Assembly (NCBI GenBank): GCA_937925855.1
Contig: CALAMO010000024.1
Span: forward strand, 1-64,000
Direction: 5' to 3'
Source: an uncultured Thiotrichaceae bacterium
GTDB lineage: Bacteria; Pseudomonadota; Gammaproteobacteria; Thiotrichales; Thiotrichaceae
Length of the DNA stretch: 64,000 nucleotides
Each line of letters begins with the position of its first letter. Position 1 is the first letter of the stretch. The notes under the pieces were generated by a model that did not search any database, was not told where the DNA came from, and was given only the letters and a program-made list of their open reading frames with translations. Below are positions 9,404-32,475 of the stretch, one piece after another. The position numbers and the translations under genes were made by a program.

Positions 9404-9497
9404 TGTATTATTCCGGTGCTAATGTTTATTTGGCTAACTTAACAGGTTAGGGTTATTCTCTCTACTTTGAAAGCCACGTCAAACCGGAATAACCACC
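9404..9497. promoter_or_regulatory. Divergent promoter/operator region of the hpa cluster
   Basis: The 94-base gap between the start codons of hpaE and the FAH-family gene holds an inverted repeat CTAAC-N7-GTTAG at 9434-9450, roughly central. On the plus strand TTGGCT (9430-9435) and TTATTC stand 17 bases apart as a weak -35/-10 candidate overlapping the palindrome. TTATTCCGG (9408-9416) and CCGGAATAA (9484-9492) give both genes the same ribosome-binding leader. A repressor binding the palindrome would control both directions; no regulator gene lies inside the cluster. Confidence 0.45.
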
Positions 9498-10352: not shown

Positions 10353-10372
10353 GACACTGCTTTAAGACACTG
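10348..10372. repeat. Small tandem duplication across the stop codon
   Basis: TTTAAGACACTG occurs at 10348-10359 and again at 10361-10372, separated by one base. The first copy contains the TAA stop of the FAH-family gene. It looks like a recent slippage duplication with no effect on the protein. Confidence 0.8.
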
Positions 10373-10390
10373 GGCGGCGGGCGCATTGCC

Positions 10391-11005
10391 TTAGCGCAAT
10401 AGCACGCTTGTCACCTGCCCGGCTTGTGTCTGACGGGCTATCGTTAAATCAAACGCCTCAAAATCCAGCGCCAACTCAGACTCATATTCCAGGTAAATCA
10501 TTCCCTCCGCGTTTAACAGCTGATGCTGATGGATTAAGCGCAGGGTTTGTACCGCCCAGTCCTGACGGAACGGCGGGTCAAGCAAGATAATATCAAACGG
10601 TTCTGGCGCTGTGGCGAGAAACGCTAAGCCGTCGGCATGGTGGAGCGTTAGGCCAGCGGCCTGTAGAGCAGTGCTGTTGGCCTGTAACTGTGCAAAAGCA
10701 GCCGCCTGCTTTTCCACCATCACCACCGTCGCCGCGCCGCGCGACAGCGCTTCAAACCCCAGCGCGCCGCTACCGGCGAATAAATCCAGGCAGCGCGCCC
10801 CCGGTACGCTCAGCTGGAGCCAGTTAAACAGTGTTTCCCGCACGCGATCCGGTGTTGGCCGCAGGCCGGGCAGCGCCGCCACCGGCAAGCGCCGACTGCG
10901 CCACTTCCCACCAATAATACGCAGCTGGCTCGCTTTACCCGCCGCGGCTCGACGGGCTTTGGCTGATGTGTTAGCTGCTGGCCGGTTTGGCCTTTGCTTC
11001 GCCAT
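10391..11005 (-). CDS. rsmD: 16S rRNA (guanine-966-N2)-methyltransferase
   Basis: SAM-dependent methyltransferase acting on G966 of 16S rRNA in assembled 30S particles. It has a Rossmann core with SAM motif DLFAGSGALGFEALSRGA, the catalytic tetrapeptide DPPF in IILLDPPF, and the RsmD-typical RIIGGKWRSRRL and RPTPDRVRETLFNWL. About 204 residues if started at ATG 11005; the longer open frame to 11086 would add only arginine-rich sequence. A basic N-terminal tail of ~25 residues precedes the domain. It overlaps the end of the upstream M16 gene by 35 bases, consistent with one minus-strand operon. Confidence 0.92.
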   Translation of the reverse strand: MAKQRPNRPAANTSAKARRAAAGKASQLRIIGGKWRSRRLPVAALPGLRPTPDRVRETLFNWLQLSVPGARCLDLFAGSGALGFEALSRGAATVVMVEKQAAAFAQLQANSTALQAAGLTLHHADGLAFLATAPEPFDIILLDPPFRQDWAVQTLRLIHQHQLLNAEGMIYLEYESELALDFEAFDLTIARQTQAGQVTSVLLR

Positions 11006-12464
11006 CGTCGTTCTCGCCCGCCTTATTCTGCTCGCCCGTCTCATCCATCTCATCAGCCGCGTCGGCCTTCGCCTCACCGCCCACAATCACCGTTAACAGC
11101 TTATCCGGGTCTAAACGCCGTTGAAAAGCATCCACAACCTGCTCATGCGTCAGTGCCTCAATATTAGCACTGAAGGTGTCGAGGTAATCCAGCGGCATGT
11201 CATAAAACCCAATCATCGACAAATAGCTGACGATACTAGCGTTGCTTGCGGTGCGCAGCGGGAAACCGCCGGTGATATTTTTCTGGGAGGCACCTAGTTC
11301 ATTACCGCTTGGCCCTTCAGCACGAAACACCTGAAGCGTGTCATTCATCACCTCGATGGCTTCATCGACCTGATTCAACTTGGTTTGCAGGCCCATTTGG
11401 AACGGCCCCGGCTGCCCCATCAGCGCGAAATAACTGTACACGCTGTAACTCAAGCCGCGCTTACTGCGAATCTCTTCGGTCAGGCGTGAGCTGAAACCGC
11501 CCCCTCCTAAAATGTGATTCCCCAAATAAAGACTAAAATAATCGGGATCACCGCGCTTTGCCCCAATCTGCCCTAGCGTAATGTGTGCCTGCTCGGATGG
11601 ATAAGGAATATGAATCGTTTTGGCCGCTGTAAGCGCGGGCACCGGCGGTAAGGGCGCTGCCCGCTTGCCCTCAGCCAGCACGGCGGAAACACGCTCCGCC
11701 AATACTTCTGCCGCCGCGCGATCAATCGCCCCCACTAGGGCCAACACGCCATTACGCGCCACAAAGTACTGCTGATAAAACGCCCGTAAATCATCTGTAG
11801 TCAGCGCCTGGATCGAAGCTTCCGTGCCATTATCCGGTGCAGCATAGGGATGATCACCGTATAAAGCCTGCATAAACGCCTTTGCGCCCAGCGCACTCGG
11901 CGACTGTTTCTCCGCCTGCAAGCCGACCAGAGCCAGCTTCTGGGCATTATTAAACTCTTTCTCTGGGAAATCAGGCTCACTCAAAACGGTTAGCCAAGTG
12001 TCCAGCCCCCGCTTCATTTCATTGTCCAGCGTTAAGGTGCGTAGACTGACCCACGCCATATCACGCGCAGCGCCGCCGCCATAAACGGCCCCAACCGATT
12101 CAAAGGACTCCGCCAGCTGATCCGCACTCATCCCGCCCGCGCCGTCATTCAGCAGGCCACTGGTCAACATGGCTAAACCGGGCTTATCGCCGTCACGCGC
12201 CCCGCCAGCCGCAAAGGTCAGGCGAATATCTAACATCGGCAGTTGAGGCGCGGCGACATAATAAACCCGCAGCCCCTTATCCGTCGTCCAGTGCTCGATG
12301 TTGGGGCCAGCTTGTGCCACTTGCAGACTCACACACAACAACAGTAGAGCAGACAACCCTGACATTCCCACACCCATATTGCTTTTTAGCCAGGCCCGAA
12401 CGCAAGAAGTGCTATTGTCCCACACACGACAGCGCGCCTTAAGCGCTTGATTAGACCTACTCAT
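10971..12464 (-). CDS. M16-family zinc-peptidase homologue lacking the catalytic motif
   Basis: A 497-residue pitrilysin-fold protein with a long N-terminal signal region (hydrophobic near 35-50, cleavage after VAQA). No HxxEH motif is present where the family has it (GLAMLTSGLLNDGAGG replaces it). The C-terminal half keeps the substrate-groove signature ILGGGGFSSRLTEEIRSKRGLSYSVYSYF. This is the pattern of the non-catalytic partner in heterodimeric M16B pairs (compare alpha-MPP). It starts within the ATGA overlap with the catalytic gene, behind a strong AGGAGG site. The C-terminus is acidic and Lys/Ala-rich. Probable periplasmic partner subunit. Confidence 0.88.
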   Translation of the reverse strand: MSRSNQALKARCRVWDNSTSCVRAWLKSNMGVGMSGLSALLLLCVSLQVAQAGPNIEHWTTDKGLRVYYVAAPQLPMLDIRLTFAAGGARDGDKPGLAMLTSGLLNDGAGGMSADQLAESFESVGAVYGGGAARDMAWVSLRTLTLDNEMKRGLDTWLTVLSEPDFPEKEFNNAQKLALVGLQAEKQSPSALGAKAFMQALYGDHPYAAPDNGTEASIQALTTDDLRAFYQQYFVARNGVLALVGAIDRAAAEVLAERVSAVLAEGKRAAPLPPVPALTAAKTIHIPYPSEQAHITLGQIGAKRGDPDYFSLYLGNHILGGGGFSSRLTEEIRSKRGLSYSVYSYFALMGQPGPFQMGLQTKLNQVDEAIEVMNDTLQVFRAEGPSGNELGASQKNITGGFPLRTASNASIVSYLSMIGFYDMPLDYLDTFSANIEALTHEQVVDAFQRRLDPDKLLTVIVGGEAKADAADEMDETGEQNKAGENDDGEAKAKPASS

Positions 12465-13894
12465 TGTTCATCCTCCTCAGAACGCTTGACCCCTATCGCC
12501 TGCGGCACCAGCTCCCCTATGGTCAGCTGCTCTTCCACAAAGTATTTCTGCGCCACCTGTTGAATTTGCTCCGGGGTTATCGCCAACACGCGCTCAACAT
12601 AGGCATCCATGAGCTTATAGCCCAGACCCACCGTTTCCAGCGAGCCCAGTAGGTTGGCCTGTTGCTGCACCCCGTCCAGCCCAAACACCTCGCCCGCAAT
12701 CACCTGTGCTTTCACCCGCGCCAGCTCTTGTGGCGTCACCGCCTCTGTTTTGAAACGCTCCAGCTGTTCCAGCAGCGCCGCTTTCACCACCTCAATAGCG
12801 ACGTCCTTCGCGGGGACACCGTACACCGAAAACAGACTTGGCAGACGCCCATAATTACTCGACCATGAGCCCGCCGCCGCCGCAATTTCCTTACCTCGAA
12901 TCATTTCCCGACTCATGCGCGAGCTGCGGCCACCGTCCAGCACGCTGCTTAAGACTTCCAGCGCATAAGGCTCCCATTCGCTTTCAGTCCCCAACACATC
13001 GACCAAGGCGGGCGTCTTATAGCCCATCAGCACAAAAGGCACTTCTGCCGGAGCTTTCACTTTGACATGGCGCGGCCCCATTTGTGGGGTTTCAAGCTGT
13101 GGCTTGGGCGGCGTAATAGTACGGCGTTCAATCGGGCCATAATACTGCTGCGCCAAGGCGTGCACCTCAGCCGGCTCAACGTCACCGACCACCACCAACG
13201 TGGCATTATTCGGCGCATACCAGCGGTCATACCAAGTGCGCAGATCAGCCACTGTCATTGCATCCAGGTCAGTCATCCAGCCAATGACCGGATGACCATT
13301 GGGGTTATTCAGAAACGCAGTCGCCATAAACTGTTCACGGGCCAAGCCGTTTGGACGATCCTCAGTACGCAAGCGACGCTCTTCTTTCACCACTGCCATC
13401 TCTTTCTTAAATTCTTCCGGCGGCAAGGTCAGGCCCCGCATGCGATCCGCTTCCAGCTCCAGTGCAATCGCTAACCGGTCACTGGCTAGGGTCTGGTGAT
13501 ACACCGTGGCATCTGGACTTGTGAACGCATTATCCTCCGCCCCGTTTTCATTAATAATACGGTTAAATTCGCCCGTGGGGTACTTTTTTGTGCCTTTGAA
13601 CATCATATGTTCGAGCGCATGCGACACACCGGTAATCCCAGAATGCTCATAGCTGGAGCCGACTTTGTACCAGAGTTGCACCACGGCAATCGGGGCGCGC
13701 TTATCCTGCTTGACCAATATGCGCAGACCGTTATCCAGCGTGTACTCGTGGATGGCGTCACTGTATTGAACCGCCGATGATTCTGCTAAAACCACGCTGC
13801 CCACACTGACCGCACCCAGCAGAACGCTCAGCACGGTTAACAAAACGGCTTTACTGTTACGCATTAGGCGCGCAAATGGTAGTATTCCTGACAT
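12461..13894 (-). CDS. M16-family zinc metallopeptidase, catalytic subunit
   Basis: A 477-residue pitrilysin-type (inverted zincin) peptidase with an N-terminal signal segment (about 1-37, ending VVLA before ESS). The zinc site is intact: HALEH at 92-96 and the distal Glu pair in VVKEERR near 171-172. The region ENGAEDNAFTSPDATVYHQT and the C-terminal GGRSSRMSREMIRGKEIAA match bacterial M16B peptidases. It is paired with the non-catalytic homologue through an ATGA overlap. Likely periplasmic and active as a heterodimer. It diverges from ftsY, with 50 bases between start codons. Confidence 0.9.
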   Translation of the reverse strand: MSGILPFARLMRNSKAVLLTVLSVLLGAVSVGSVVLAESSAVQYSDAIHEYTLDNGLRILVKQDKRAPIAVVQLWYKVGSSYEHSGITGVSHALEHMMFKGTKKYPTGEFNRIINENGAEDNAFTSPDATVYHQTLASDRLAIALELEADRMRGLTLPPEEFKKEMAVVKEERRLRTEDRPNGLAREQFMATAFLNNPNGHPVIGWMTDLDAMTVADLRTWYDRWYAPNNATLVVVGDVEPAEVHALAQQYYGPIERRTITPPKPQLETPQMGPRHVKVKAPAEVPFVLMGYKTPALVDVLGTESEWEPYALEVLSSVLDGGRSSRMSREMIRGKEIAAAAGSWSSNYGRLPSLFSVYGVPAKDVAIEVVKAALLEQLERFKTEAVTPQELARVKAQVIAGEVFGLDGVQQQANLLGSLETVGLGYKLMDAYVERVLAITPEQIQQVAQKYFVEEQLTIGELVPQAIGVKRSEEDEQ

Positions 13895-13944
13895 TATTTA
13901 TATTCCTACCCGATAGACATAAAAATCACCAGGTTCATTGTACG

Positions 13945-14949
13945 ATGTTTGGATTCGGAAAGAAAAAAAACGAGGACGCTGCCGCATTACCATCCGGTAA
14001 TGCGGCTGATGCAAAAGCCGCAGGCGGCTTGTTCTTACGCCTGAAACAAGGACTGTCTAAAACCGGGAGTGCCCTGACCGAAGGGATGGAAAACCTAGTA
14101 CTCGGCAAAAAGAAAATCGACGCCGAGGTGCTGGAGGAACTGGAGGAACGTCTGCTGCTGGCCGACCTCGGCATGGAAGCCACACAGAATATTATGGCCG
14201 ACCTGACGCAGCGGGTTGACCGCGCCGAACTGAATGATTTGGACACGCTGCTAGCCGCGATGGAAACCAAGATGCTGGAAATCTTGCACCCCGTCAGCGC
14301 AGCACTCACCCCGAACCCAGACAATCAGCCGACGGTGATCCTTATGGTCGGCGTTAATGGTGCCGGAAAAACCACAACCATTGGCAAACTCGCCAAAAAG
14401 TTTCAGCAGCAGGGCAAATCCGTCATGCTCGCCGCTGGGGATACTTTTCGGGCAGCAGCGGTCGAACAACTCAGCATTTGGGGCGAGCGCAATCAAATTC
14501 CGGTGGTGGCACAAGGTACTGGCGCAGACTCTGCCTCAGTGATCTACGATGCACTACAATCAGCTAAGGCCAGGGGTATCGATATACTGTTGGCGGATAC
14601 CGCAGGACGCCTGCATACCCAGACTAACCTGATGGATGAGTTAAAAAAGGTTAAGCGCGTGCTCCAAAAACTAGAGCCTAGCGCACCGCACGAGGTGATG
14701 CTGATTGTGGATGCCAGTATCGGCCAGAACGCCTTGGTACAAGCCACACAATTTAATGAGGCGCTGGGCGTGACCGGTATTACCGTGACCAAACTGGATG
14801 GTACCGCTAGGGGAGGGATTGTCTTTGCTATCGCTGAACAGCTGAAGATTCCGGTGCGCTTTATTGGCGTGGGTGAAAGCATTGATGATTTACAGGCCTT
14901 TGATGCCACAGCCTTTACCCGCGCACTGCTAGCAGGCAAGGCAGCCTGA
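13945..14949 (+). CDS. ftsY: Signal recognition particle receptor FtsY
   Basis: SRP-dependent GTPase that docks ribosome-nascent chain complexes at the membrane. About 334 residues from ATG 13945 (MFGFGKKKNED...); the open frame extends upstream to 13876 but the homology and basic/amphipathic N-terminus start here. The NG domain is complete: GVNGAGKTTTIGKLAKKF (G1), DTFRAAAVEQL, DTAGRLHTQTNLMDEL (G3), TKLDGTARGG (G4) and IGVGESIDDLQAFD. It is shorter than E. coli FtsY because the long acidic A domain is only about 35 residues. It forms the usual ftsY-ftsE-ftsX group. Confidence 0.96.
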   Translation: MFGFGKKKNEDAAALPSGNAADAKAAGGLFLRLKQGLSKTGSALTEGMENLVLGKKKIDAEVLEELEERLLLADLGMEATQNIMADLTQRVDRAELNDLDTLLAAMETKMLEILHPVSAALTPNPDNQPTVILMVGVNGAGKTTTIGKLAKKFQQQGKSVMLAAGDTFRAAAVEQLSIWGERNQIPVVAQGTGADSASVIYDALQSAKARGIDILLADTAGRLHTQTNLMDELKKVKRVLQKLEPSAPHEVMLIVDASIGQNALVQATQFNEALGVTGITVTKLDGTARGGIVFAIAEQLKIPVRFIGVGESIDDLQAFDATAFTRALLAGKAA

Positions 14950-14980
14950 TTGCGCATAAACTACTGGGGCTTATGCACAA
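14950..14980 (+). other. Stem-loop between ftsY and ftsE
   Basis: TTGCGCATAA (14950-14959) can pair with TTATGCACAA (14971-14980) with one mismatch across an 11-base loop. No T-run follows, so it is more likely an mRNA processing or stability hairpin than a terminator. Confidence 0.4.
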
Positions 14981-15025
14981 TGAATGACCAAACCGGACGA
15001 CTTAAGCAAACGACTGAACTAGAGC

Positions 15026-15670
15026 ATGATTGAATTCAAAGAAGTTTGTAAGCGTTATACCACCGGGCAGCTGGCCTTGTATAACGTGAATCTAACAATG
15101 CGAGCCGGTGAGATGATTTTCATCACCGGTCACTCCGGCGCCGGAAAAAGCACGCTGCTTAAGCTCATTGCCCTACTAGAACGCCCCAGCAAGGGTGAGA
15201 TTCTAGTCGGTGGCAAACCGCTGAGCCAGCTGACTCGCAGCCAGATCCCGCAGTACCGTCGGCGTATCGGCTTTATTTTTCAGGATCCCCACTTACTACA
15301 TGACCGCTCAGTTTTCGATAATGTGGCTATCCCCTTATTAATTTCTGGCATGGGCAGCCATGAGATAAAACGCCGGGTGCATGCCGCACTCGACAAAGTT
15401 GGCCTCATGCATAAGGTGAAGAGCTTCCCGTTGATGCTGTCCGCTGGTGAACGCCAGCGCGTCGGTATTGCGCGTGCCTTCGTTAACCGCCCGACCGTTA
15501 TCTTAGCCGATGAACCCACCGGCAACCTTGACCCAGAACTGGCGCAAGACATTATGTATACTTTTTCTCAGTTCAATGACCTCGGTGCAACCGTCCTCAT
15601 CGCAAGCCATGATCATGCGCTGGTGGATCGCATGCAAAAACGTACCATTATGTTACAGAAGGTGGAGTAA
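15026..15670 (+). CDS. ftsE: Cell division ATP-binding protein FtsE
   Basis: ATPase of the FtsEX complex that couples cytokinesis to periplasmic peptidoglycan hydrolase activation. At 214 residues it has typical FtsE length, with Walker A GHSGAGKST, Q-loop IGFIFQDPHLL, signature LSAGERQRVGIAR, Walker B VILADEPTGNLD and H-loop ASHDH. Its stop overlaps the ftsX start (TAATG), indicating coupled translation. Confidence 0.96.
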   Translation: MIEFKEVCKRYTTGQLALYNVNLTMRAGEMIFITGHSGAGKSTLLKLIALLERPSKGEILVGGKPLSQLTRSQIPQYRRRIGFIFQDPHLLHDRSVFDNVAIPLLISGMGSHEIKRRVHAALDKVGLMHKVKSFPLMLSAGERQRVGIARAFVNRPTVILADEPTGNLDPELAQDIMYTFSQFNDLGATVLIASHDHALVDRMQKRTIMLQKVE

Positions 15671-16653
15671 TGGCGGACAGACCCAACACACGCAGTGGCC
15701 GCCGCCAGATCAAACGCACTGGGCCGTTTGCGGCTTGGCTACATCAGCAGAAAAACGCTATTCATTTCAGCTTGAAGCGCTTGTGGTTTAACCCGGTTTC
15801 GACCTGGATCACCCTCGCAGCCATCGGTATCGCCCTGTCCTTACCCACCAGCCTGAGCGTACTGCTGGAAAATATGCAAACGCTGACCGATAACAAGCGC
15901 GAAGTCCCCACCGTCACGCTGTTTATGAAAGAAACCATCTCCGAACAACAGACAAAAGACCGCGCAGAACTGCTGTCTGAACTGGATGAAGTCGCTAACG
16001 TCCAGGTCGTCACTCGTGAACAGGCCATTGATAATTTCCGCAAGATCAGCGGCTTTGCAGAAACGCTGGAAGCACTGCCTGAAAACCCGCTGCCGCATGT
16101 GCTGATTCTGACGCCTAAGCTCAGTATGTTCAGCAATCTGGAGAGTGATCTCGCAGAATTTGCGGGTAAACTGAATGCCTACTCAGATGTAGAAACCGTA
16201 CAGGTTGATATCGAGTGGATACAGCGCCTGCGCGCTATCCTGAATATCGCCGACCGCATTGTGCTAGTGGTTTCCATCCTGCTCGGCCTCACCGTGCTGC
16301 TGGTCATCGGGAACACCATCCGCCTCGACATCGAAAACCGCAAAGAAGAAATCACCGTCACCCGCCTAATCGGCGCAACCAACGGCTATATCCGGCGCCC
16401 GTTTATCTATGGCGGCTGCTGGCTTGGAATATTTGGCGGCGTCATTAGCCTCGTGATTGTTCATCTCGCGCTGCTGTTTATGATTGAACCGGTGAATGAT
16501 CTGGCGCAAGAATACGGCAGCAACTTCGCCTTGAACAGCGTCGGGGTTTTAATGACGCTACAAGTATTAGCCATCAGCGCACTGCTTGGCGTTATGGGTG
16601 CCTGGATCGCGGTGGGGCGCTATCTTTGGAACAATGATGGGATTGAGGCATAG
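15670..16653 (+). CDS. ftsX: Cell division protein FtsX
   Basis: Integral membrane partner of FtsE, 327 residues, with a basic cytoplasmic N-terminus (about 1-35). TM1 lies near 40-60, followed by the periplasmic loop (about 65-205) that in the family contacts EnvC or other hydrolase activators. Three C-terminal helices follow (near 205-225, 250-275 and 295-315). The segment IRLDIENRKEEITVTRLIGATNGYIRRPF is the family hallmark. In many gammaproteobacteria rpoH follows; here the next gene is the convergent purD, so rpoH must lie elsewhere. Confidence 0.95.
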   Translation: MADRPNTRSGRRQIKRTGPFAAWLHQQKNAIHFSLKRLWFNPVSTWITLAAIGIALSLPTSLSVLLENMQTLTDNKREVPTVTLFMKETISEQQTKDRAELLSELDEVANVQVVTREQAIDNFRKISGFAETLEALPENPLPHVLILTPKLSMFSNLESDLAEFAGKLNAYSDVETVQVDIEWIQRLRAILNIADRIVLVVSILLGLTVLLVIGNTIRLDIENRKEEITVTRLIGATNGYIRRPFIYGGCWLGIFGGVISLVIVHLALLFMIEPVNDLAQEYGSNFALNSVGVLMTLQVLAISALLGVMGAWIAVGRYLWNNDGIEA

Positions 16654-21841: not shown

Positions 21842-22168
21842 ATGCAATCATTTAGCATACGTGACCTGCGGGAACGCACCGGAGACATTAGCCGTTCCGC
21901 TGAACAAGGGGAACTGTCATTGGTTACCCGCCACGGACACCCACTATTTATTAGCGTGCCTTTCAACCAACACGTTGTTGAACATGGTGTCTATCTCGCA
22001 CTGGCGGAAAACCTGTTCAAATCCGGTGAACTTAGCCTCGGCAAAGCAGCAAAACTGGCAAATATGTCGCGTGTGGAATTTGGTGAACATGTCAGTCGTC
22101 TGGGAATTCCGATTGTAGATTATGATCCTGCTGAGCTTGATGCCGAGCTGGATTATTTTTCTTCATGA
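21842..22168 (+). CDS. Antitoxin: Phd-like N-terminus joined to UPF0175 C-terminus
   Basis: 108 residues. The first ~50 (SIRDLRERTGDISRSAEQGELSLVTRHGHPLFISVPF) follow the Phd/YefM DNA-binding pattern, where the N-terminal strand/helix and hairpin form the DNA-binding fold. The rest (AENLFKSGELSLGKAAKLANMSRVEFGEHVSRLGIPIVDYD...) matches UPF0175, a small antitoxin family. The gene overlaps the DUF3368 toxin by ATGA, the standard arrangement. Strong GAGGA site. The combination is a fusion of two antitoxin types, the first for DNA binding and the second probably for toxin neutralisation. Confidence 0.8.
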   Translation: MQSFSIRDLRERTGDISRSAEQGELSLVTRHGHPLFISVPFNQHVVEHGVYLALAENLFKSGELSLGKAAKLANMSRVEFGEHVSRLGIPIVDYDPAELDAELDYFSS

Positions 22169-22656
22169 CAAAGCCCATTATTGTCGCAGACGCCAGCCCA
22201 CTTATTGCGCTGGCTAAGCTTGAAAAACTGGAACTATTGCATGAACTATTTTCTGATTTGCATGTGCCGGAAACTGTCCTGCTTGAAGTGACCGTTGCTC
22301 AGTCTCGCACTGACGCCCGCTTGCTCAAGTCTTATATCGCTGCAAACTTCACTGTCCATTCTACGCTGGAAAATCCGTTTACCCAGGAAATCGGGCGTAT
22401 ACTGGATGACGGTGAGATTCAGGCACTGGCTTTAGCGAGACAGCTGGATTGTGGTGTACTGATAGACGAATTACGTGGTCGCAAGGTAGCCCAACGTTAC
22501 GACATAAAAACCGTGGGCGTTCTTGGCTTATTGATGCAAAGTAAACAACAGGGTTTAGTGAGTCACATCACCCCTCTGATTACCCAACTGCAAGCAGAGA
22601 ATTATCGTTTGTCTTCCAGGCTAATCGAATCCGTTTTAGAGCGTATGGGAGAGTAG
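22165..22656 (+). CDS. DUF3368 PIN-domain toxin (VapC-like)
   Basis: 163 residues, PIN-fold ribonuclease toxin. Acidic active-site positions are visible: D9 in IVADASPLIALA, the Glu of DDGEIQALALA, and the Asp of VLIDELRGR. The segment ARQLDCGVLIDELRGRKVAQ and GVLGLLMQSKQQGLV are typical of DUF3368, which pairs with UPF0175 antitoxins. Expected to cleave RNA. The stop codon abuts the stop of convergent gatC with zero spacing, so read-through would generate antisense to gatC. Confidence 0.85.
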   Translation: MTKPIIVADASPLIALAKLEKLELLHELFSDLHVPETVLLEVTVAQSRTDARLLKSYIAANFTVHSTLENPFTQEIGRILDDGEIQALALARQLDCGVLIDELRGRKVAQRYDIKTVGVLGLLMQSKQQGLVSHITPLITQLQAENYRLSSRLIESVLERMGE

Positions 22657-22948: not shown

Positions 22949-24379
22949 TCACCCCTTTAACTTTTCTTTCAGCAATTCATTCACCATCGCCGGATCAGCT
23001 TTACCCTTCGAGGCACGCATCGTCTGTCCAACAAAGAAGCCAAACACCTTATCCTTACCCGAACGGTACTGCTCCACCTGTCCGGGGTTATTGGCGATAA
23101 TTTCATCCACCAAGGCTTCAATCGCACCGGTATCCGTGACCTGCTTCAGACCTTTAGCTTCGATCACCGCATCAGCGTCACCATCGCCAGCCCACATGCC
23201 TTCCAACACTTCTTTCGCCGCAGTGGCAGAAATCGTCTTATCCTTAATCCGCACCAGCATGCCAGTCATCATCGCAGCACTCACCGGCGCATCCGTAATG
23301 TCCGTCTCATGCTTATTCAGCAACGCCGATAAACCGCCCATCACCCAGTTCGCCGCCAGCTTAGTATCGCCACAACCTTCGGCCACGGTTTCAAAATAAT
23401 CCGCCACTTCGCGACTATTGGTCAAGTCATCCGCCAGATCAGCATTTAATCCCAGCTCAGCCATAAAACGCTGCTTTCGCGCATCCGGTAACTCAGGCAA
23501 CGAAGCACGCGCCTCTTCCAGATCCTCAGCCGAGATCGCCACCGGCAATAAATCCGGGTCAGGGAAATAGCGGTAATCGTTCGCGTCTTCCTTGCCGCGC
23601 ATTGAACGTGTCTCATCCTTATCAGGATCATACAAGCGCGTCTCCTGTACCACCTGACCACCGGACTCAATGATCCCGATTTGGCGATCGACTTCGCAAT
23701 GAATCGCGCTCTGAATAAAGCGGAACGAGTTCAGATTTTTAATCTCAGCGCGTGTACCAAATTCAGCGCCCGGACGGCGTACGGAAACGTTCACATCACA
23801 GCGGAACGAGCCTTCCTGCATATTGCCATCACACACGCCGAGATAACGCACCAGCGCATGCAACTTCTTCACGTAAGCAACCGCTTCTTTCGCCGAACGC
23901 ATATCCGGCTCAGACACAATTTCCAGTAAAGGCGTACCCGCACGATTCAAATCAATCCCGGTCTGCGTTTCAAAGTCTTCATGCAGCGACTTACCGGCAT
24001 CTTCCTCAAGATGCGCCCGGGTCACCCCAATGCGTTTGGTTTCGCCGTTTTCCAGCTCAATATCCAGATGGCCCAAACCGACAATCGGCAGCTCAAACTG
24101 ACTGATTTGGTAGCCTTTTGGTAGATCGGGGTAAAAATAATTCTTGCGGGCAAATACTGACTGCGGCGCGATTTCAGCATCAATCGCCAGGCCTAAACGC
24201 AGCGCCAACTTTACCGCCTGCTTATTCAATACCGGCAACACACCCGGCATGCCGAGATCAACCAGACTCGCCTGTGTGTTTGGTTCCGCACCATAAGCCG
24301 TAGAAGAGCCAGAGAAAATTTTGCTGTTAGTCGATAACTGGGCATGAATTTCCAGACCGATGACCGTTTCCCATTCCAT
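22949..24379 (-). CDS. gatB: Asp/Glu-tRNA amidotransferase subunit B
   Basis: 476 residues; activates misacylated Glu-tRNA(Gln)/Asp-tRNA(Asn) by phosphorylation and binds the tRNA. Family landmarks: [18 protein letters not shown] at the N-terminus, [69 protein letters not shown], then the helical YqeY-like tail ([28 protein letters not shown]). Lies 11 bases after gatA. Confidence 0.96.
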
Positions 24380-24390
24380 GTGTTATCTCC

Positions 24391-25884
24391 TCAAGCGAAT
24401 GCCGCGGGTGTTTGTAAATGCCAATCGGTTTGCTGCTGGTACTGATGAGCAATATTCAACATACGCGCTTCTTCAAAGTAATTACCAATCAACTGCATAC
24501 CCACCGGCAGACCATTATCAGCAAAACCAATCGGGAAACTCATCCCCGGCAAACCAGCCAGACTGGTTGGAATGGTGTAAATATCCGCGAGATACATCGC
24601 CAGCTGATCATCGACCAACTCACCTAGCTTGAAAGCTGTAGTCGGCGCAGATGGCCCCATAATGACATCAACATCGTTAAACACATCAACAAAGTCTTGT
24701 TTAATCAGGCGACGTACCTGCTGCGCCTTGAGGTAATAAGCATCGTAATACCCCGAAGACAACGCATAAGTCCCCATCATAATGCGGCGCTTCACTTCGT
24801 CACCAAAACCTTCCCAGCGACTACGTTCATATAAATCGTTCAGATCCTGTGGATTATCACAGCGATGACCAAAACGTACCCCATCGAAACGCGACAGGTT
24901 CGACGAACATTCTGCTGGCGCGACCACATAATAAACCGGCACAGCGAGATGACTATTTGGCAACGTGACCTCTTTAATCACAGCACCGCGTGCTTCAAAT
25001 GCTTTCACCGCACGCTCAATCACCGCAGCCACCTGCTGATCCAAACCCTCAGCAAAAAACTCCTGCGGCAAGCCAATCTTCAGGCCATCAATCGAATCAT
25101 TCAGATTCGCAGTGTAATCCGGTACATCGACCTGCGCCGACGTCGAATCGCGCTCATCAAAGCCAGCGATCTCATTCAACGTAATCGCACAATCTTCCGC
25201 CGATACCGCCATCGGGCCGCACTGATCCAGACTGGAAGCGAAGGCAATCATGCCAAAGCGCGACACGCGGCCATAGGTCGGTTTAATGCCGGTGACGCCG
25301 CAGAAAGACGCCGGTTGGCGAATCGAGCCACCGGTGTCGGTACCTAATACCATGGGTGCGAGACGTGCAGCGACTGCCGCTGCGCCCCCACCAGAGCTGC
25401 CGCCCGGCACATAGTCAGTGTTCCAGGGGTTTTGCACCGGTGCAAACGCCGAGTTCTCATTCGATGACCCCATCGCGAACTCATCCATATTGTTCTTACC
25501 CAGCAAGACGCCCCCGGCGTCTTTCAGCTTGCTGGTGACATGTGCATCATAAGGCGCAACAAAATTCGCCAGCATTTTCGAGGCACAGCTGGTCAGAATA
25601 CCATCGGTGCAAAACAAGTCTTTCAGTGCATAGGGAATACCGGCCAGCGCACCCTTTAACTCGCCAGCGCGTATTTGATTATCAATCACCTCCGCCTGCG
25701 CGCGCGCCTGTTCTTCTGTCACGGTAATATAAGACTTCAGTCCAGCATCAAAACGTGCGATGCGCTCAAGATAGGCTGCAGTGACTTCCATCACTGAAAA
25801 CTGGCTAGACTGTATGCCCCGCTGTAACGCTTTCAATGATAGCTGTGTTAGCTCAGCAGTTTGGGTTGAATCGACCTGAGACAT
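24391..25884 (-). CDS. gatA: Asp/Glu-tRNA amidotransferase subunit A
   Basis: Amidase-signature glutaminase that supplies ammonia to GatB; about 497 residues. The Ser-cisSer-Lys triad is intact: Lys in [10 protein letters not shown], Ser in [12 protein letters not shown], Ser in [16 protein letters not shown]. Start 25884 (MSQVDSTQ) is supported by CCGGAG five bases upstream; an in-frame ATG at 25905 lacks one. First gene of the A-B-C unit. A short hairpin (AGGCAG/CTGCCT, 25908-25923) lies just upstream in its leader. Confidence 0.96.
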
Positions 25885-25970
25885 GATTACTCCGGTAAAT
25901 GACACTCAGGCAGTTTGCTGCCTACCGCTCCGGCAGCGTTTCTGCAATACAGCGCCCTGAACAATGAATA

Positions 25971-26180: not shown

Positions 26181-29100
26181 CTAGGGCAAACTGCCCTTCA
26201 CTACAAAATTAGAGATATAATCCGTATTATCTGGGTGCAGCAAAACATTACCAATCAACAAGTTAGAATCGTTACTAGGCCCGCTGTAAATCGTCTTACC
26301 ATCCATATTGAGGTCGCTGGCATAATACCCCGCCAGCGGATAGTTAGCATTCGCCTTCTTATTCGCAGGAGCGACCAACACAGATCCCAACAACACGGTT
26401 AAATCACTGCCCGGCCCTTCACTAATAATCGATCCACTATTATTCAAATCACCCGACCACATCAGTGCATGATCGGAGGACATCATGGAGCGTGGGATTT
26501 TGCCATAAACCGGCAGATCAGGATCAGCAAAATCGTAAGTGATCGATTCATCAGGCTTTAGCGGCACCGGCGTAGCCGTCATCACCCCGAGATGATTACG
26601 ATGACGAATAGCAATATAATGATTGCCTTCACCTACACCCGACAAAACCAGACTATCACTCCCCGTTTCTGCGACTACAATATCGCCATCCGCCTGAATT
26701 AGTGCCGCAGTGGAAGACAATATCCTAGTGGGGTCTGCGCTAGCGCGAATTTCCACCAATATCCAGTCAACGACGGCATCCCCCTCCTCCGCACGGAAGA
26801 CGGCGTCCGACATAACGCCCTCGCCCTGATAGCCAAAAGGTGTCACATTGCCGACAGAGCCGTAGCCAAAAGAATTTTCTAGACTGGAATAGGGCTGCTC
26901 CGTCGGAAGATAACCAGAGTCCCGCAGCTTGGTATGCATCTGCTTGGCGCGCAGATCATATGCACCCTGCAACATAGCACGCAGCTTCACCCGGATAAAA
27001 GGAGAAAACTCGCTGTCCATATAATCCACCAGCCCATCAAGATCAGCATCAACCGCATCCGCCGGATCGCCATCTCCATTAGGATCAGGCATTTCATCTT
27101 TAGTTAGGATGCCATCATCATCATCATCAGCGTCAATGTAATTCTTCTTACCGTCCTGATCATAATCTAAGGCGTCATCAGGATTCCCGTTTTGATTAGG
27201 ATCAGGCGACTCATTAATGGTCAGCAAACCGTCACCATCATCATCGGTATCCAGGTAATCCACGATACCATCACCATCGGTATCATCATCCAGTGGCAGG
27301 GCACCATTATAATTTTCCAACCAGGTAATCACCCCATCCCCGTCATCATCCGTATCCAGATAATCGGGCATCCCATCGCCGTCGGAATCCTCATCGGTGG
27401 GGCCATTGCCGTTATAGTCTTCTAGTTTAGTCAAGATGCTGTCATTATCATCATCATGATCCAAGTAGTTTGGCACACCGTCATTATCCGTATCAGTATC
27501 CGCTACCGACTTGCCATCGTGGGCTTCATCAATATTTAAAATACCGTCATTATCATCATCCTGGTCACGAAAATCAGGGATGCCATCATTATCACTGTCT
27601 AATGGATCACCATTTTCATCCATCTCTTTCCCATCAGGAATGCCGTCATTATCACTGTCGCTGTCGTTGGGGTCTGAGCCTAATTCAATCTCCGTCTGAT
27701 TATCAATACCGTCGCCATCATCATCGTCACCGGGTGCGGTCGCATTATTAAAATCCAGGTAGTCCACTAAACCATCACCCTCAGTATCCACCGCATCCGT
27801 TGGATTGCCATCATTATTAGGGTCGGCCTGCTCATTTTTTGTTAGCAAGCCGTCATTATCATCATCCGTATCCAAGTAATCCGGCACGTCGTCTTTATCG
27901 GTATCATCATCGGTCGGCAGCCCACCATTATAGTTTTCATAGCGCGTCAAAACGCCATCGCCATCATCATCCACATCACGGTAATCAGGCACAGCGTCGC
28001 CATCGGTATCATCATCAGCAGGCGTGCCCGCATTATAATTTTCATCCTTGGTCAGGATGCCATCACCATCATCGTCATCATCCAGCACGTCAGGCACACG
28101 ATCACCATCGGTATCCCGAGGATTAAGGTAATCCAGGCCGATCTCTTCCCGATCGTCAATACCGTCACCATCAGTATCCGCCTTATTCGGATCGCTACCA
28201 ATCGCTAACTCAACACCAGCTGGCACGCCATCACCGTCAAAGTCTTCAGCTAAATCCACCACGGTCACGATGATGGTCTGCGCGTCACAGGCATTGAAGC
28301 GGTCACAAACCTTCACCTTGATTTCGTATTGATTGTTTTTATCGTGATCGACTGGTTTTTCATAGTCCGGCGGCAGAATAAAACGCAGGCCCCCACGCGA
28401 ATCAATCACAAATTGAGCTTCATCGCTGCCTCCGAACGTTGACCAGCTTAAGCCTGAACCTTCAGTGTCGCCTTCCGTATCCTCTGCATTCAGGTCAACC
28501 ACAGGCTGAGTCGAGTTCTCCTCAAACGAGAGATTTATAGCGAGCGAGCCGTCATTATTTAAGATACGCGGGGGCTGGTTATTTTCAGCCGCAGGATCCT
28601 CAGCCACATCAGCCACCGTCACCGTCAGCATCTGCACATCGCACATTGTTGTGCTGTCACACACCCGAACTTCTACTTGGTACTGATTATCGTTATCAGC
28701 GTCCGCAGGCTTTTCATAATTAGGCGACTGAATGAAATGCAGTCCGCCCTGCGAATCGAATGCAAAGAGTCGCTCATCACTGCCCCCCGAGATGACCCAG
28801 ACCAAACCCGCACCTTCGGTATCACCATCCTGGTCCTCAGCGTCCATTTCAATAACAGCGACTACGGCATTTTCATTATAGGAAAGCGCCGCAGTGGCAG
28901 CACTTGCATTATTTAAGATCGTGGGCGGATTTTTCACACTCGCATCCGCCAAATCAGTCACCTCAACGGTAATAGACTGCGTATCACAGGCCGCCGAGCT
29001 ATCACACACACTGACCTCCACTTCATACTGGTTGTCAATGCCTTCATCCAAAGGTTGTTCAAAATCAGGCGCTACAATAAACCGTAGCTTACCGCGTGCA

Positions 29101-30875
29101 TCAAGGGTAAAACGCTCCTCATCAGCCCCGCCAGATATAGACCAGACCAGTCCTGAGTTCTCGGTATCACCATCCTCATCCTGTGCATCGAGGTCAATAA
29201 TCACCGTGGTGGCATTTTCAGGATAAGTCAGGCGGGTAGACGGTGCACTGCCATTATTAGTAATCGTCGGCGCACGATTTTCTGCAGGTGCCGAATCCTG
29301 CTCATCCAGCAAGTCACTCACCCATACAGTAATCGTCTGCACATCACATTCAGCCGCGCTATCACAGACCTTTACTTCGACCTGGTATTGGTTATCTTTG
29401 TTATGATCCAACGGATTTTCATAGTCAGGTGGCCTAATAAAACGCAAGCCCCCACTCACATCCAGGGTGAAATGACGTGCATCATGACCACCCGATAGTA
29501 CCCAAATTAAGCCCGCGCCCTCGCTATCACCATCCACATCCTTAGCATCTAAGCTGACAATAACGGCTGTTGTATTTTCCAGCACAGAAATACTAAAGGT
29601 CTCAGCACTATTCGCGTTGGTAATCAGCGGAGGATTATTATGCTCGGGTTTGAGCACTAGAATAGCCGTATCATCTTCCAACGGAAGGGACAAATGATTG
29701 TAAGGCGTAGAATCCGGGTCTTCATTAAACGCATACTGGATTTCCGCCGGGATTGTATAACTGATGGCTTCGCCCACGCTGATTCTGAGGTCTAGCGTTT
29801 TACTGACGCCACCATCCATATCACCGACACGCCATATACCTTCTGCCGAGTCAAAAGTACCGCCGCCACTATCGGCGATGCTAATTACCCCCGGCGGCAA
29901 ATCAATGCCTACTGCAACCCCCTTAGTCCCCGTGGTTGAGGTGTTGGTCACGGTATAACGAATATCAAGCAGACCATTTTTAGCCGGTTTAAGGGTCGAC
30001 GGTAACGCAGACAGCGCTAAATCAACTTCAGCCGAAGACGTACTGGTGAGCCACTTGAAAAAAGCGGCAGAATCATAAGCCTGATCACCTGCATCAGCGA
30101 GTGCAAGCTTAATTCGATAACGCTGCCCGGCCTGCAAATCGCCAATTGAGGCCGTCACTGGCCGGGTAAAGCCATCCATTTGTGTGCCGGCAGCCCCGGT
30201 ACCATTGCCGTTATCGACGAAGTAAATAGAATGACTCAGGTCACAAGCTGTCCCATCCGCCGCACTGCCACGCAGGCCATTATTAATATTATTAACAGCA
30301 ATGGGAGCATTGGAACCTGGAACACGCGCCGCATTGCTTGTCCCGTTGATACCCGGCCCGCTCACAAACAGACCGAAAGCATCATTAAATTTGCTACACA
30401 CGTATTCTGGATATTCTTCCGAACCAAATACCAGCAGGAAATTAAGTTTATCGCCCTCTGGAATAAGATCAAATTCAAGGATCACTGGGTCGTAGATTGC
30501 GTTAGCGGTAATACCCATCAGATCGGGGTCACCGTATTGGACGTTGGTGTTATAGGTAAACTTGTCGGTGTTATTAGGGCCTGCAATGCTGTTTTTATTG
30601 CCGGTGCTGAGGTAAATGCCATCTGGGATGCCTAGATTATTACCCCCGGTTACTGAATCATTACCCCCGACAAACGTTCCATACTGCCCTTTAACACCTT
30701 TAATGAAACGTAAATTTTCAAGTTGCAGCCCTGGCCCACGCAGCACAGCACTGAATTCGCCCGGCGTTGGGGAATCATTAAGAGAGAGTTCAGCCACTGC
30801 AGACTGACTAAGAACAGTTATCACAAGGACTAGAATGCCTTTAAAGCCCTGCTTCCAGAGGTAGGTCATACCCAA
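26181..30875 (-). CDS. Large secreted Ca-binding protein: choice-of-anchor L, cadherin-like repeats, TSP3 array
   Basis: 1564 residues. Signal peptide 1-28 (cut after SAVA). A choice-of-anchor L domain spans about 35-285 ([47 protein letters not shown]). A DUF11-like Ig module follows (290-410). Four cadherin-like repeats start near 412, 532, 647 and 765; each has VCDSxxxCD, a Cys pair likely to form a disulfide. From about 878 to 1285 lies a long Asp-rich thrombospondin type 3 array ([19 protein letters not shown] units). The C-terminal part (1285-1564) contains [19 protein letters not shown] and [14 protein letters not shown], then two EF-like loops ([17 protein letters not shown]) that resemble dockerin. 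Probably an extracellular adhesin or matrix protein that needs Ca. No sortase, PEP-CTERM or T9SS tail is seen; the export route is unknown. Confidence 0.88.
27030..28245 (-). repeat. Thrombospondin type 3 repeat array (within the surface protein gene)
   Basis: About 400 codons of Asp/Gly-rich Ca-binding repeats, seen on the plus strand as recurrent ATCATCATC/GTCACCATC triplets. Units alternate between [32 protein letters not shown] and longer PDPNxNGNPxDA units. The sequence identity between units makes this region prone to recombination and misassembly. Confidence 0.85.
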
Positions 30876-31122
30876 ATACCTATTATTGTTATTTTATAAG
30901 CCCAGCGAGAACGTAACGTGGTTTTGCTCTCGGTCTTTCTATTAAGATTCAAATTAACGCAAAAGCGCCACAATAAGCAAATTTTATTAGTCGTTCGGTC
31001 GGGTATAAGCCAGCCTTGTGCCACCTTTCGTCGCTTGCTACCGCCTATCCCTTCACAAAGCAGCGCACTCAACTCATAATGGAATGACCCTCCCCAACAA
31101 CAATAATAAAGTGGGTGTCATC

Positions 31123-32475
31123 GTGAATAATAAGAAATGGCTGGCGCTTATGCTGGTTGCGACTTCATCAATGCCGTTCTCAGCTGCCAATGCTGAATAT
31201 TACCCCTCTTACCCAACCATTGAACCCGCCGCCAATGTGCCAAATGCAGGCCGGGCTTTACCCTGGTGGAATGAACGCACGATGCTGGTTCCTGAAATAC
31301 AACCCCACCGAACAGCTCGCGCGCAAACTGGCAACACACCGGTGCGGCAACACACCACACGCAGGCAAAATCCAGGGTACATGACCACACCAACAGTGCA
31401 CGCACAGCCGGCGAGCTACCAAAAGCCGTATCACAACAATCCAACGCGCCTGCTGCATCAGACGCTTAATTGCCAACATGCGAATGCGCTTAATTTGCCG
31501 GATCGCTGCATCCTGCGCTCTGCCCACAATCGTCGTGGGCTGGAAGAACAAATCAAATACCTGCGCACACGCAACCCAGTACAACAGGTCGCCAGAGGTT
31601 GGGCTGGCGTCTCCAATGCCGCGCTGTTACACACGGCCCACAGGCTATTACATTGGGAACGGGGACTTAACAGACAGCCCCTACAGGAACAATTTTTCCT
31701 ACGCAGGATTGGCTCACAAAAAAACACCGCGCATGCGGATTACACCGGTTACTTCACCCCTGTTGTCCAGGTACAAAGTTTTCCTGATCAGCGCTACCGG
31801 TTTCCTATCTATGCCGCGCCGCGCAATGGTACGAGCCTTACTCGCCGCCAAATAGAACAGGGGGCATTGCGCAATCACCAGCTGGAAATTGCCTGGACAG
31901 ATGACCGGGTGAATTTATTTTTTGCGCATACGCAGGGTTCAGCCATCGCACGTTATCCTGATGGCACTGAACGTTACCTGGGTTACGCAGGTAATAACCG
32001 CCATGCCTACGGCAAAATTAGCCGGGTATTACGCAGTAAAGGCTATATGCAAGGCAGCATGAGTAATGAAAACATCCGTAAATGGTTGCATGCTAATCCA
32101 AGGCAGATTGATGAAGTACTGAATTACAATCAACGCTATATCTTTTTCAGCTTATCCAATCACCTCCCCAAAACGGCAACGGGAACCGCCGTATTGCCAG
32201 GCCATACGCTGGCAGTCGATGACCATTATATTCCGCTGGGTGCTGTTTTACTCGCAGCGGTGCCACGGATTAACCATTTAGGCCAACGGATTGGCAGCGA
32301 CTGGCGCTTGCTCTTCGCTCAGGACAGAGGCAACGCAATTAAAGGACCTGGCCGTGTCGATATGTATACCGGCATGGGACAGCATGCCGAAGCCGCCACC
32401 TATCAAGTAACCGGCTTGCATCAAACGTATATGCTCATTAGCAAACCCAACGATCAAAATGTCGCCAGAATGTAG
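31123..32475 (+). CDS. MltA-family lytic murein transglycosylase
   Basis: Cleaves peptidoglycan glycan strands with 1,6-anhydromuramoyl product. The MltA core spans the C-terminal ~300 residues: DYTGYFTPV, LTRRQIEQGALRN, LEIAWTDDRVNLFFAHTQGSA, then the 3D domain with catalytic Asp region LFAQDRGNAIKGPGRVDMYTG. GTG 31123 gives a clean signal peptide (VNNKKWLALMLVAT...SAANA); ATG 31084 is a possible longer start. Unlike E. coli MltA there is no lipobox Cys, and an unusual ~110-residue Pro/His/Thr/Asn-rich segment separates the signal from the core. It diverges from the large surface protein. Confidence 0.85.
   Translation: MNNKKWLALMLVATSSMPFSAANAEYYPSYPTIEPAANVPNAGRALPWWNERTMLVPEIQPHRTARAQTGNTPVRQHTTRRQNPGYMTTPTVHAQPASYQKPYHNNPTRLLHQTLNCQHANALNLPDRCILRSAHNRRGLEEQIKYLRTRNPVQQVARGWAGVSNAALLHTAHRLLHWERGLNRQPLQEQFFLRRIGSQKNTAHADYTGYFTPVVQVQSFPDQRYRFPIYAAPRNGTSLTRRQIEQGALRNHQLEIAWTDDRVNLFFAHTQGSAIARYPDGTERYLGYAGNNRHAYGKISRVLRSKGYMQGSMSNENIRKWLHANPRQIDEVLNYNQRYIFFSLSNHLPKTATGTAVLPGHTLAVDDHYIPLGAVLLAAVPRINHLGQRIGSDWRLLFAQDRGNAIKGPGRVDMYTGMGQHAEAATYQVTGLHQTYMLISKPNDQNVARM

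Follow-up and report, generated by a model that had tools for sequence, protein, structure and literature searches.

A predicted X-dockerin-like C-terminal bimodule and a candidate cohesin-like partner in Thiotrichaceae and Bacteroidota

The closest described counterparts of the element considered here are the X-module–dockerin (XDoc) bimodules of clostridial cellulase scaffolds, which, as described in the section cited here, anchor the complex onto surface cohesins (PMC5141474). Non-cellulosomal cohesins and dockerins have been described for Ca. Stygibacter (Cloacimonadota), with a scaffoldin-like protein and the scaffold's own C-terminal domain for surface attachment (PMC8542988), and for anaerobic methanotrophic (ANME) archaea, where one protein may contain as many as five cohesins plus a dockerin (PMC9012536); according to the cited sections of these two papers, both systems were detected with standard domain libraries. 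According to the section cited of a rumen study, its Bacteroidetes genome, like others, lacks cohesins and dockerins (PMC5831590). Here, we describe a 4.7-kb gene at positions 26181–30875 (reverse strand) of a 64,000-nucleotide stretch of contig CALAMO010000024.1 from an uncultured Thiotrichaceae bacterium (the whole stretch being referred to as the window), and suggest, with a probability of about 0.7, that its product is a client of an undescribed non-cellulosomal cohesin/X-dockerin-like surface-assembly system with predicted binding.

As far as the cited sections describe them, the Ca. Stygibacter and ANME systems resemble the present set in combining multi-cohesin scaffoldin-like proteins with dockerin proteins beyond classical cellulosomes, whereas no cohesin or dockerin model matches the families found here, whose hosts are Thiotrichaceae and Bacteroidota. 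A literature search, with subscription papers and preprints outside its scope, yielded nothing on cohesins or dockerins in Thiothrix, on choice-of-anchor L or on these families. The kind of system, non-cellulosomal cohesin/dockerin, is known, while the families, hosts and anchors of the present variant appear to be new. The N-terminal 1289 residues of the window protein share the make-up of cadherin/TSP3 adhesins with choice-of-anchor L, a label that covers the adhesive part only and is silent on the C-terminal bimodule.

Fold, conservation and distribution of the C-terminal bimodule

The gene and the parts of its C-terminal domain (CTD; 275 residues, an X-module-like plus dockerin-II-like bimodule) are located as follows.

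26181..30875, reverse strand: whole gene, intact open reading frame (ORF) of 1564 codons, 1564 residues counted from TTG
26466..27008, reverse strand: X-module-like Ig fold, from residue 1290 to roughly 1470, based on the predicted structure and its fold matches in PDB
26184..26465, reverse strand: dockerin-II-like module comprising two loop-helix units of the Ca type, approximately residues 1471–1564, from predicted fold, profile and conservation
26403..26450, reverse strand: putative Ca-type loop 1, D1476 to D1491, 16 positions, from conservation over 91 sequences
26268..26315, reverse strand: putative Ca-type loop 2, D1521 to D1536, 16 positions, from conservation over 91 sequences

The model of the CTD, built with AlphaFold2 (AF2) from a 91-sequence alignment, has pLDDT 94.6 and pTM 0.91. 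In a Foldseek search against PDB, chains holding an X-module and a type II dockerin take ranks 1, 2 and 4 (E-values from 6.9e-4 to 4.3e-3), and in the VIA-align search X-dockerins occupy ranks 1–7 (Z 7.8–9.2, 142–151 residues, 3.5–3.8 Å), followed by a row at Z 5.2 and then by lower ones. As the tool itself remarks, best Z values of 7–8 are common without true kinship, and thus this gap to the next row weighs more than Z itself. Carboxypeptidase D domains are also on the list, at Z 4.2; a published X-module has been likened to avian carboxypeptidase D, 1qmu, in the section cited (PMC5141474). At the profile level, alignment of the CTD with three PDB X-dockerins by hhalign gives P = 7.5e-4 and a probability of 25%, with the MWxGD and DxNxDG motifs in register, and mismatched profile pairs used as a control give P of 0.98 and 0.53.

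The closest known structures are the clostridial XDoc of Acetivibrio cellulolyticus ScaA (4u3s/4wi0) and of C. thermocellum CipA (2b59/3kcp/4fl4) and CipB (5m0y/5k39), with which the CTD shares both motifs and the order of a C-terminal bimodule, an Ig-like X fold preceding a two-loop dockerin fold. It differs from them in sequence (15–19% identity over aligned residues), in the length of both loops (16 positions vs 12), in the lack of a Pfam dockerin match, and in its clients, which are adhesin-like, whereas the clostridial XDoc belong to cellulase scaffolds. The first loop of the A. cellulolyticus XDoc carries a four-residue insertion as well, according to the section cited (PMC5141474). No Pfam or NCBIfam family matches the CTD of the window protein itself, none is common to more than two of the 91 aligned members, and no dockerin or X-module family is among the matches of these members at E ≤ 0.01; that is, the dockerin models of the two libraries do not recognise the family. 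Searches of PDB sequences with the CTD, the CTD profile and the profile of the cohesin-like domain discussed below yielded weak matches only, the best E of 0.2 being at chance level for the CTD.

A canonical EF-hand loop comprises 12 positions. In both CTD loops the first and last positions are 15 apart instead of 11, and residues of the Ca-binding type are conserved among the 91 sequences: D/N in 85/91, N/D in 83/91, D/S/N in 87/91 and D in 89/91 in loop 1, and D in 91/91, N/D in 88/91, D/N/S in 90/91 and D/E in 91/91 in loop 2. Hence, judged by residue type, the Ca ligands are conserved in both loops, although these have 16 rather than 12 positions. The preliminary description of the gene, made from the DNA alone, had proposed a dockerin-like C-terminus and had named C-terminal loops lacking Ca binding as an observation that would speak against it; the former is borne out by the predicted X-module plus dockerin-II-like fold, and the latter is not what the conserved residues suggest. 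Taken together, the Ig-like X-module followed by a two loop-helix dockerin fold is present in the predicted structure, with low TM-scores, and so we consider the CTD to be a predicted X-dockerin-like fold, diverged in sequence and with longer loops.

A scan of genome contigs revealed at least 569 stretches encoding CTD relatives; the best 80 of these were kept and constitute 78 loci (L009–L086), with the window itself outside the 78. By their titles, the loci belong to Thiothrix, Thiofilum and their kin, to Bacteroidota and, in one case, to Gemmatales; the Bacteroidota loci are mostly from Saprospiraceae, Chitinophagales and Cytophagales, to the last of which some of them presumably belong. 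Two groups, Thio and Bact, were set from these titles, the Gemmatales metagenome-assembled genome (MAG; L064) being placed with Bacteroidota, and three proteobacterial MAGs (L012, L024, L026), with Thiotrichaceae. The alignment of 91 members leaves out rows that cover fewer than about 245 model positions, start past position 8, or are more than 85% alike to another row. The 78 loci include 91 distinct complete ORFs that encode a full-length CTD, and in 87 of them (44/45 in Thio and 43/46 in Bact) at most 12 residues separate the domain from the stop codon; in the four exceptions 281–504 residues lie beyond it. Counted here are full-length CTDs whose 3′ end is complete, leaving aside shorter X-only matches and the broken copies L037 and L040 from a MAG of Ca. 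Thiothrix singaporensis. Between phyla the C-terminal bimodule is retained, in contrast to the variable N-terminal parts.

Several observations concern individual loci. Several CTD genes of the Ca. Thiothrix singaporensis MAG seem to be broken or frameshifted, perhaps due to sequencing error. In three Bacteroidota ORFs (L051, L054, L070), the CTD is followed by 281–282 residues with a similar W-rich, CGPCQ-type end, possibly another C-terminal signal. At a further Bacteroidota locus (L066, 3212–6771) four consecutive short ORFs of 270–324 residues each contain a CTD variant; the last approximately 20 residues of these variants differ, most of them have Cys, and all end in proline.

A cohesin-like domain as the candidate partner

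The Pfam cohesin model PF00963 has 0 matches in the genome of the window (E ≤ 0.001), which first suggested that the genome contains no partner at all; this was dropped after clustering of the neighbours of CTD genes produced a cohesin-like candidate, one large group of 45 ORFs from 30 loci in both phyla. The domain of about 160 residues shared by these ORFs, which occurs in single-domain proteins, joined to a CTD, or in tandem, had been named a cohesin candidate ahead of structure prediction. In the window's genome it is found in four proteins, all on contig C12: two with a CTD, one single-domain, and one with an IPTL-CTERM tail; in L006 the four are at 7979–10684, 10876–11463, 11767–14328 and 14435–16048. 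The preliminary description was right that no partner is adjacent to the gene, the candidates being on another contig, and the cohesin-type partner that it implied is matched by a co-occurring family of predicted cohesin fold, invisible to PF00963 in this genome.

The structural model of the domain has pLDDT 95.1. Cohesins or cohesin-holding scaffoldin chains take Foldseek ranks 1–11 (best E 2.5e-3) and, in the VIA search, cohesins or cohesin-holding chains take ranks 1–23 (Z 9.9–8.3); with 115–128 residues of the jelly roll aligned, the first 25 VIA rows (Z 9.9–8.2) include one non-cohesin, and the nearest cohesins are 2vo8 and 2jh2 from C. perfringens. The jelly-roll fold typical of cohesins is thus present in the predicted structure, with modest E and Z, and the sequence profile PF00963 does not recognise the domain. 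We call it cohesin-like, since no sequence-level link to cohesins was found, and assign it a putative cohesin fold from predicted structure and genomic logic, not from sequence. It resembles cohesin modules also in tandem copies and in carriers with anchor signals, and differs from them in an undetectable sequence relation and in the anchors, which are IPTL-CTERM or type IX secretion system (T9SS) tails.

Many of the CTD-less cohesin-like proteins have an anchor signal matching the type used by the host. Of the 25 positive genomes in the window's family, 24 encode a cohesin-like protein with an IPTL-CTERM tail (contigs and ORF sizes were matched by hand between lists; the exception, G051, is near a contig start). 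IPTL-CTERM is sparse in this family (34 genomes have matches, 1–4 apiece), and in the window's genome its sole match is the cohesin-like protein. Among four further IPTL-like cohesin-like proteins, three pass the cut-off and one fails (16.8 vs 20.5). In Bacteroidota, short cohesin-like proteins have a T9SS type A tail above the cut-off in six out of six cases tested, and longer ones, a T9SS type B tail in four out of four, all ten proteins having been chosen by the appearance of their tails; out of 12 complete CTD-less Bacteroidota cohesin-like ORFs, 10 have tails of about 95–107 residues resembling T9SS type A, and two (L045_5 and L055_4) have no such tail.

Some proteins contain several copies of the domain: four followed by a CTD in L103, three with a CTD in L104, three with a T9SS type B tail in L112 and L113, and arrays of at least seven in L110, which runs off the contig, and of at least six in L111, which is cut by the fetched stretch. 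Adaptor and anchoring scaffoldins are laid out in this way. Two further kinds of carriers were noted. Lone cohesin-like proteins of 253–261 residues, away from the listed CTD matches (L105, L106, L107), have a short helical-looking tail ending near Cys; ORFs of similar size are seen in other genomes, and these proteins are possibly a distinct receptor. A cohesin-like protein of genome G473 (L116, 3–4517, reverse strand) has a fetched end that by eye reads as a canonical dockerin (DVNNSKTISTIDMIQIRKLIL), so that old-type and new-type docking would be present in one polypeptide.

T9SS was considered for the window's family as well and was rejected: SprA is found in 0/63 genomes of the family and in 8/8 Bacteroidota CTD carriers used as a positive control. 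Matches of the PorV type, seen in 26/63 genomes, are all below the cut-off, do not track the CTD, and were taken as general similarity of outer-membrane barrels. The window protein was also rejected as a T9SS substrate, given this SprA result and the lack of matches to the type A and B tails (TIGR04183/TIGR04131) in the NCBIfam scan. Two Bacteroidota clients scanned with NCBIfam (L060, L080) have no T9SS tail.

The two domains tend to occur in the same genomes. The window's family is taken to be Thiotrichaceae, given the named loci (Thiothrix, Thiofilum) with the same CTDs and ORF lengths common to loci and genomes (for example, 1235 residues in L010 and G040). Among 63 genomes of the window's family, 25 have both domains, two have the CTD only (these genomes are 74% and 83% complete), none has the cohesin-like domain only, and 36 have neither; the 46 good-quality genomes are divided into 23 with both and 23 with neither. 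The Fisher value, 2e-13, is not corrected for the kinship of these related genomes and overstates the evidence, because any gene confined to the same genera would give the same pattern. Other families considered over the same genomes do not follow it (IPTL-CTERM in 34/63, weak PorV-type matches in 26/63).

In the second phylum, 150 genomes from the family of L053 (titled Saprospiraceae) were searched at limits of 1e-10 for the CTD and 1e-5 for the cohesin-like domain, and all 23 cohesin-like-positive genomes are within the 80 CTD-positive ones. The cohesin-like domain is present in 21 of at least 30 genomes with a full-length CTD (reaching model position 248) among the matches listed, vs two of the other 120. 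At the level of loci, 34 of the 78 (12/33 in Thio and 22/45 in Bact) encode a cohesin-like domain within the fetched flanks, either in the ORF of the CTD or in one close by. The centres of the genome samples, G000, G063 and G068, are seed genomes, and alignments A2 (CTD) and A3 were built from loci of the same lineages. In a broader set of 296 Bacteroidota genomes, many of the 42 CTD-positive ones match by the X half alone. Two genomes of the L053 family (G370, G464) likewise have listed matches to the X half only (approximately model positions 2–184), with 231 and 252 first-look candidates, of which 17 were scored in each; this is possibly a separate, much larger X-like family.

Clients, proposed mechanism and alternative explanations

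The 38 Thio clients, including the window protein and two parts preceding the CTDs of the broken copies L037 and L040, contain cadherin (16), TSP3 (14), Big_9 (8), GEVED (8) and DUF11 (7) domains and one beta-sheet domain of rhamnogalacturonan lyase, and lectin, metallopeptidase and other domains are found in addition among 28 Bacteroidota clients. No cellulase family is among the 18 families listed for the Thio clients or the 25 of 32 families listed for the Bacteroidota ones. Consequently, a cellulosome was rejected, since no dockerin-bearing cellulase or hemicellulase is among the client families listed.

For the window protein, we infer docking, Ca dependence, a surface location and an adhesive role; our estimate for the client reading rests on the fold matches, gene adjacency and the co-occurrence in the second phylum. 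The protein would leave the cytoplasm by Sec export and then cross the outer membrane; its adhesive part, likely stiffened by Ca (anchor-L, cadherin-like repeats and TSP3-like stalk), would be held at the cell surface by the C-terminal bimodule, which is predicted to plug in a Ca-dependent manner into the cohesin-fold domain of other proteins. In the window's genome, the C12 cohesin-like protein with the IPTL-CTERM tail may be the anchoring receptor, and in Bacteroidota this role would be played by cohesin-fold domains of proteins that end in a type A or B T9SS tail, some of them in tandem, as in scaffoldins.

On a larger scale, it is moderately probable that the two phyla share a general-purpose cohesin/X-dockerin-like display system missed by the domain libraries searched, with Ca-dependent adhesin or enzyme clients, adaptors combining up to four cohesin-like domains with an X-dockerin, scaffolds with seven domains or more, and receptors attached through the host's own anchor (IPTL-CTERM in gammaproteobacteria and T9SS in Bacteroidota). 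Filamentous Thiothrix and Saprospiraceae could use such a system to construct their adhesive outer matrix. If so, the docking principle would reach from cellulose digestion to adhesive surface building in sulfur bacteria and Bacteroidota, and the surface retention of a large set of unannotated proteins (those of the at least 569 CTD-encoding stretches) would be explained. The list of partners from the C12 candidates is directly testable. Cohesin/dockerin pairs are used in protein engineering, and the system might provide new docking pairs for biotechnology. Such pairs are described as being among the strongest protein pairs known in the section cited (PMC5141474).

A number of observations weigh against the client reading. 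The structural similarities are modest: Foldseek TM-scores of the X-dockerins are low (0.28–0.33 by query and 0.45–0.53 by target), no Foldseek match of the cohesin-like model reaches E 0.001, and the best Z values (9.2 for the CTD and 9.9 for the cohesin-like domain) are modestly above the 7–8 typical of matchless models. Jelly rolls are common, and a GH20 chain at VIA rank 24 (Z 8.3) is level with the lower cohesins. PF00963 matches 0/70 cohesin-like members (E ≤ 0.1), and comparison of the cohesin-like profile with a thin template made up of three closely similar type I cohesins gives P = 0.76. The anchors do not coincide with the domain throughout: nine of the 34 IPTL-CTERM genomes have no cohesin-like domain, several hold other IPTL-CTERM proteins, and the CTD-less cohesin-like proteins of L006–L042 include 11 distinct anchorless single-domain ones vs five IPTL-like ones, one of them below the cut-off. 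The outer-membrane route of the clients is a further difficulty, given the lack of SprA in the 63 genomes of the window's family.

The genomic association has its exceptions, too. The positives of the window's family are confined to four of eight genera, and no cohesin-like domain is on the window gene's own contig. At 44 of the 78 CTD loci there is none in the fetched flank, and none is matched in nine of the at least 30 L053-family genomes with a listed full-length CTD, while two cohesin-like-positive genomes (G398, G483) have no full-length CTD among the matches listed. Among the 296 Bacteroidota genomes two are cohesin-like-positive, both within the 42 CTD-positive ones, and one of the two is the seed genome.

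The jelly roll and the CTD might be mere companions in an adhesin family, without mutual binding, the former binding glycan or matrix and the latter, something else or itself. Indeed, jelly rolls also serve as carbohydrate-binding modules (the GH20 chain just mentioned; carbohydrate-binding rows in Foldseek), both domains are often on one polypeptide, no sequence link to cohesins is seen, and in the window's family the co-occurrence could be due to lineage alone. Still, cohesins fill the top of the VIA list without interruption, the domains are encoded in separate adjacent genes in two phyla, with anchor tails on the cohesin-like proteins and the CTD on clients, and the co-occurrence holds in the second phylum too, all of which makes non-binding companions rather unlikely. 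Alternatively, the CTD could mainly serve secretion or sorting, as a signal that, like T9SS tails, is recognised by a translocation machine of the outer membrane, and not dock to the cohesin-like domain, as might be expected from its position as the last domain in nearly all complete ORFs, from SprA in all Bacteroidota carriers tested, and from the T9SS tail structure 8qb1 in its VIA list (Z 3.5). This is unlikely: with a working positive control, SprA is missing from the window's family, where 27 genomes have the CTD, the top fold matches are X-dockerins and not the T9SS tail, and the Bacteroidota cohesin-like proteins use ordinary T9SS tails instead. Finally, an ordinary free secreted Ca-binding matrix adhesin, in which the dockerin-like end just stabilises the C-terminus, agrees with the lack of an anchor or partner at the window locus; it seems highly improbable, as conservation of the bimodule across phyla against a background of varying N-terminal parts is unexpected for a passive cap.

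Domain layout and genomic setting of the window gene

The remaining parts of the protein and the neighbouring genes are listed below.

30792..30869, reverse strand: putative signal peptide, 26 residues, read by eye
30054..30749, reverse strand: choice-of-anchor L, residues 43–274, NCBIfam NF038133, 194.5 bits vs a cut-off of 27
29706..30023, reverse strand: DUF11 (Ig-like), residues 285–390, PF01345, 44.3 bits
28257..29594, reverse strand: four cadherin-like repeats, residues approximately 428–873, PF00028, outer limits by inspection
27012..28244, reverse strand: acidic TSP3-like repeat stalk, residues 878–1288, from motif matches, PF18884 below its cut-off
24391..25905, reverse strand: gatA, downstream syntenic anchor
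22949–24379: gatB, after gatA
31018..32475, forward strand: mltA-type lytic transglycosylase, upstream divergent syntenic anchor

An alternative ATG start at 30869, two codons 3′ of the TTG and preceded at eight bases by AGGT, is the likelier one judging by the sequence context. The ORF is intact and the modular make-up claimed for this 4.7-kb gene is confirmed. The score of NF038133, well above its cut-off, places the protein in the choice-of-anchor L family, as proposed. With respect to the four disulfide-bearing cadherin-like repeats, the repeats hold: PF00028 scores over the cut-off, four stretches are recovered when the limit is relaxed to E ≤ 1, and inspection shows one C-x5-C pair per repeat (Cys 504/510, 624/630, 739/745, 857/863); the disulfide bonds themselves are presumed. 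Similarly, of the approximately 400 residues of TSP3 repeats, the repetitive acidic stretch is found (36 of the 40 overlapping matches to D-x-[DN]-x-D-[GAKDNS] in the protein fall within 878–1276, and D/E account for 35% of residues 861–1290), whereas the Pfam model TSP3_bac (PF18884) scores 21.5, below its cut-off of 25.

The neighbours of the gene, gatA, gatB, mltA, an ABC transporter and a pseudouridine synthase, are indeed housekeeping genes, as the preliminary description had it; its proposal that the gene was acquired or expanded locally did not withstand comparison with other genomes. The counterpart gene is flanked by mltA and gatA–gatB in each of the five loci nearest in the scan (L009–L013; four titled Thiothrix and one a gammaproteobacterial MAG); recent local acquisition is thereby rejected, and the gene is an old resident. 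The CTD family in the window's genome is not local either, with three more intact proteins and one fragment scattered over the genome. In a quick tree of the 91 CTDs a single branch divides the Thio from the Bacteroidota group (SH-aLRT 96), so that repeated exchange between phyla need not be invoked; one transfer, in either direction, or old common descent would do to account for the CTD in both phyla.

Two minor observations were made. On contig C23 of G000 (89827–89958; L005, L008), a 58-codon ORF with a CTD remnant represents a broken CTD gene; it adjoins, at the contig end, the start of an ORF that by eye resembles the RHS/YD type. In the window itself, at 21842–22656 on the forward strand, a UPF0175 protein is directly followed by a DUF3368/PIN-type protein, an arrangement resembling a toxin–antitoxin pair.

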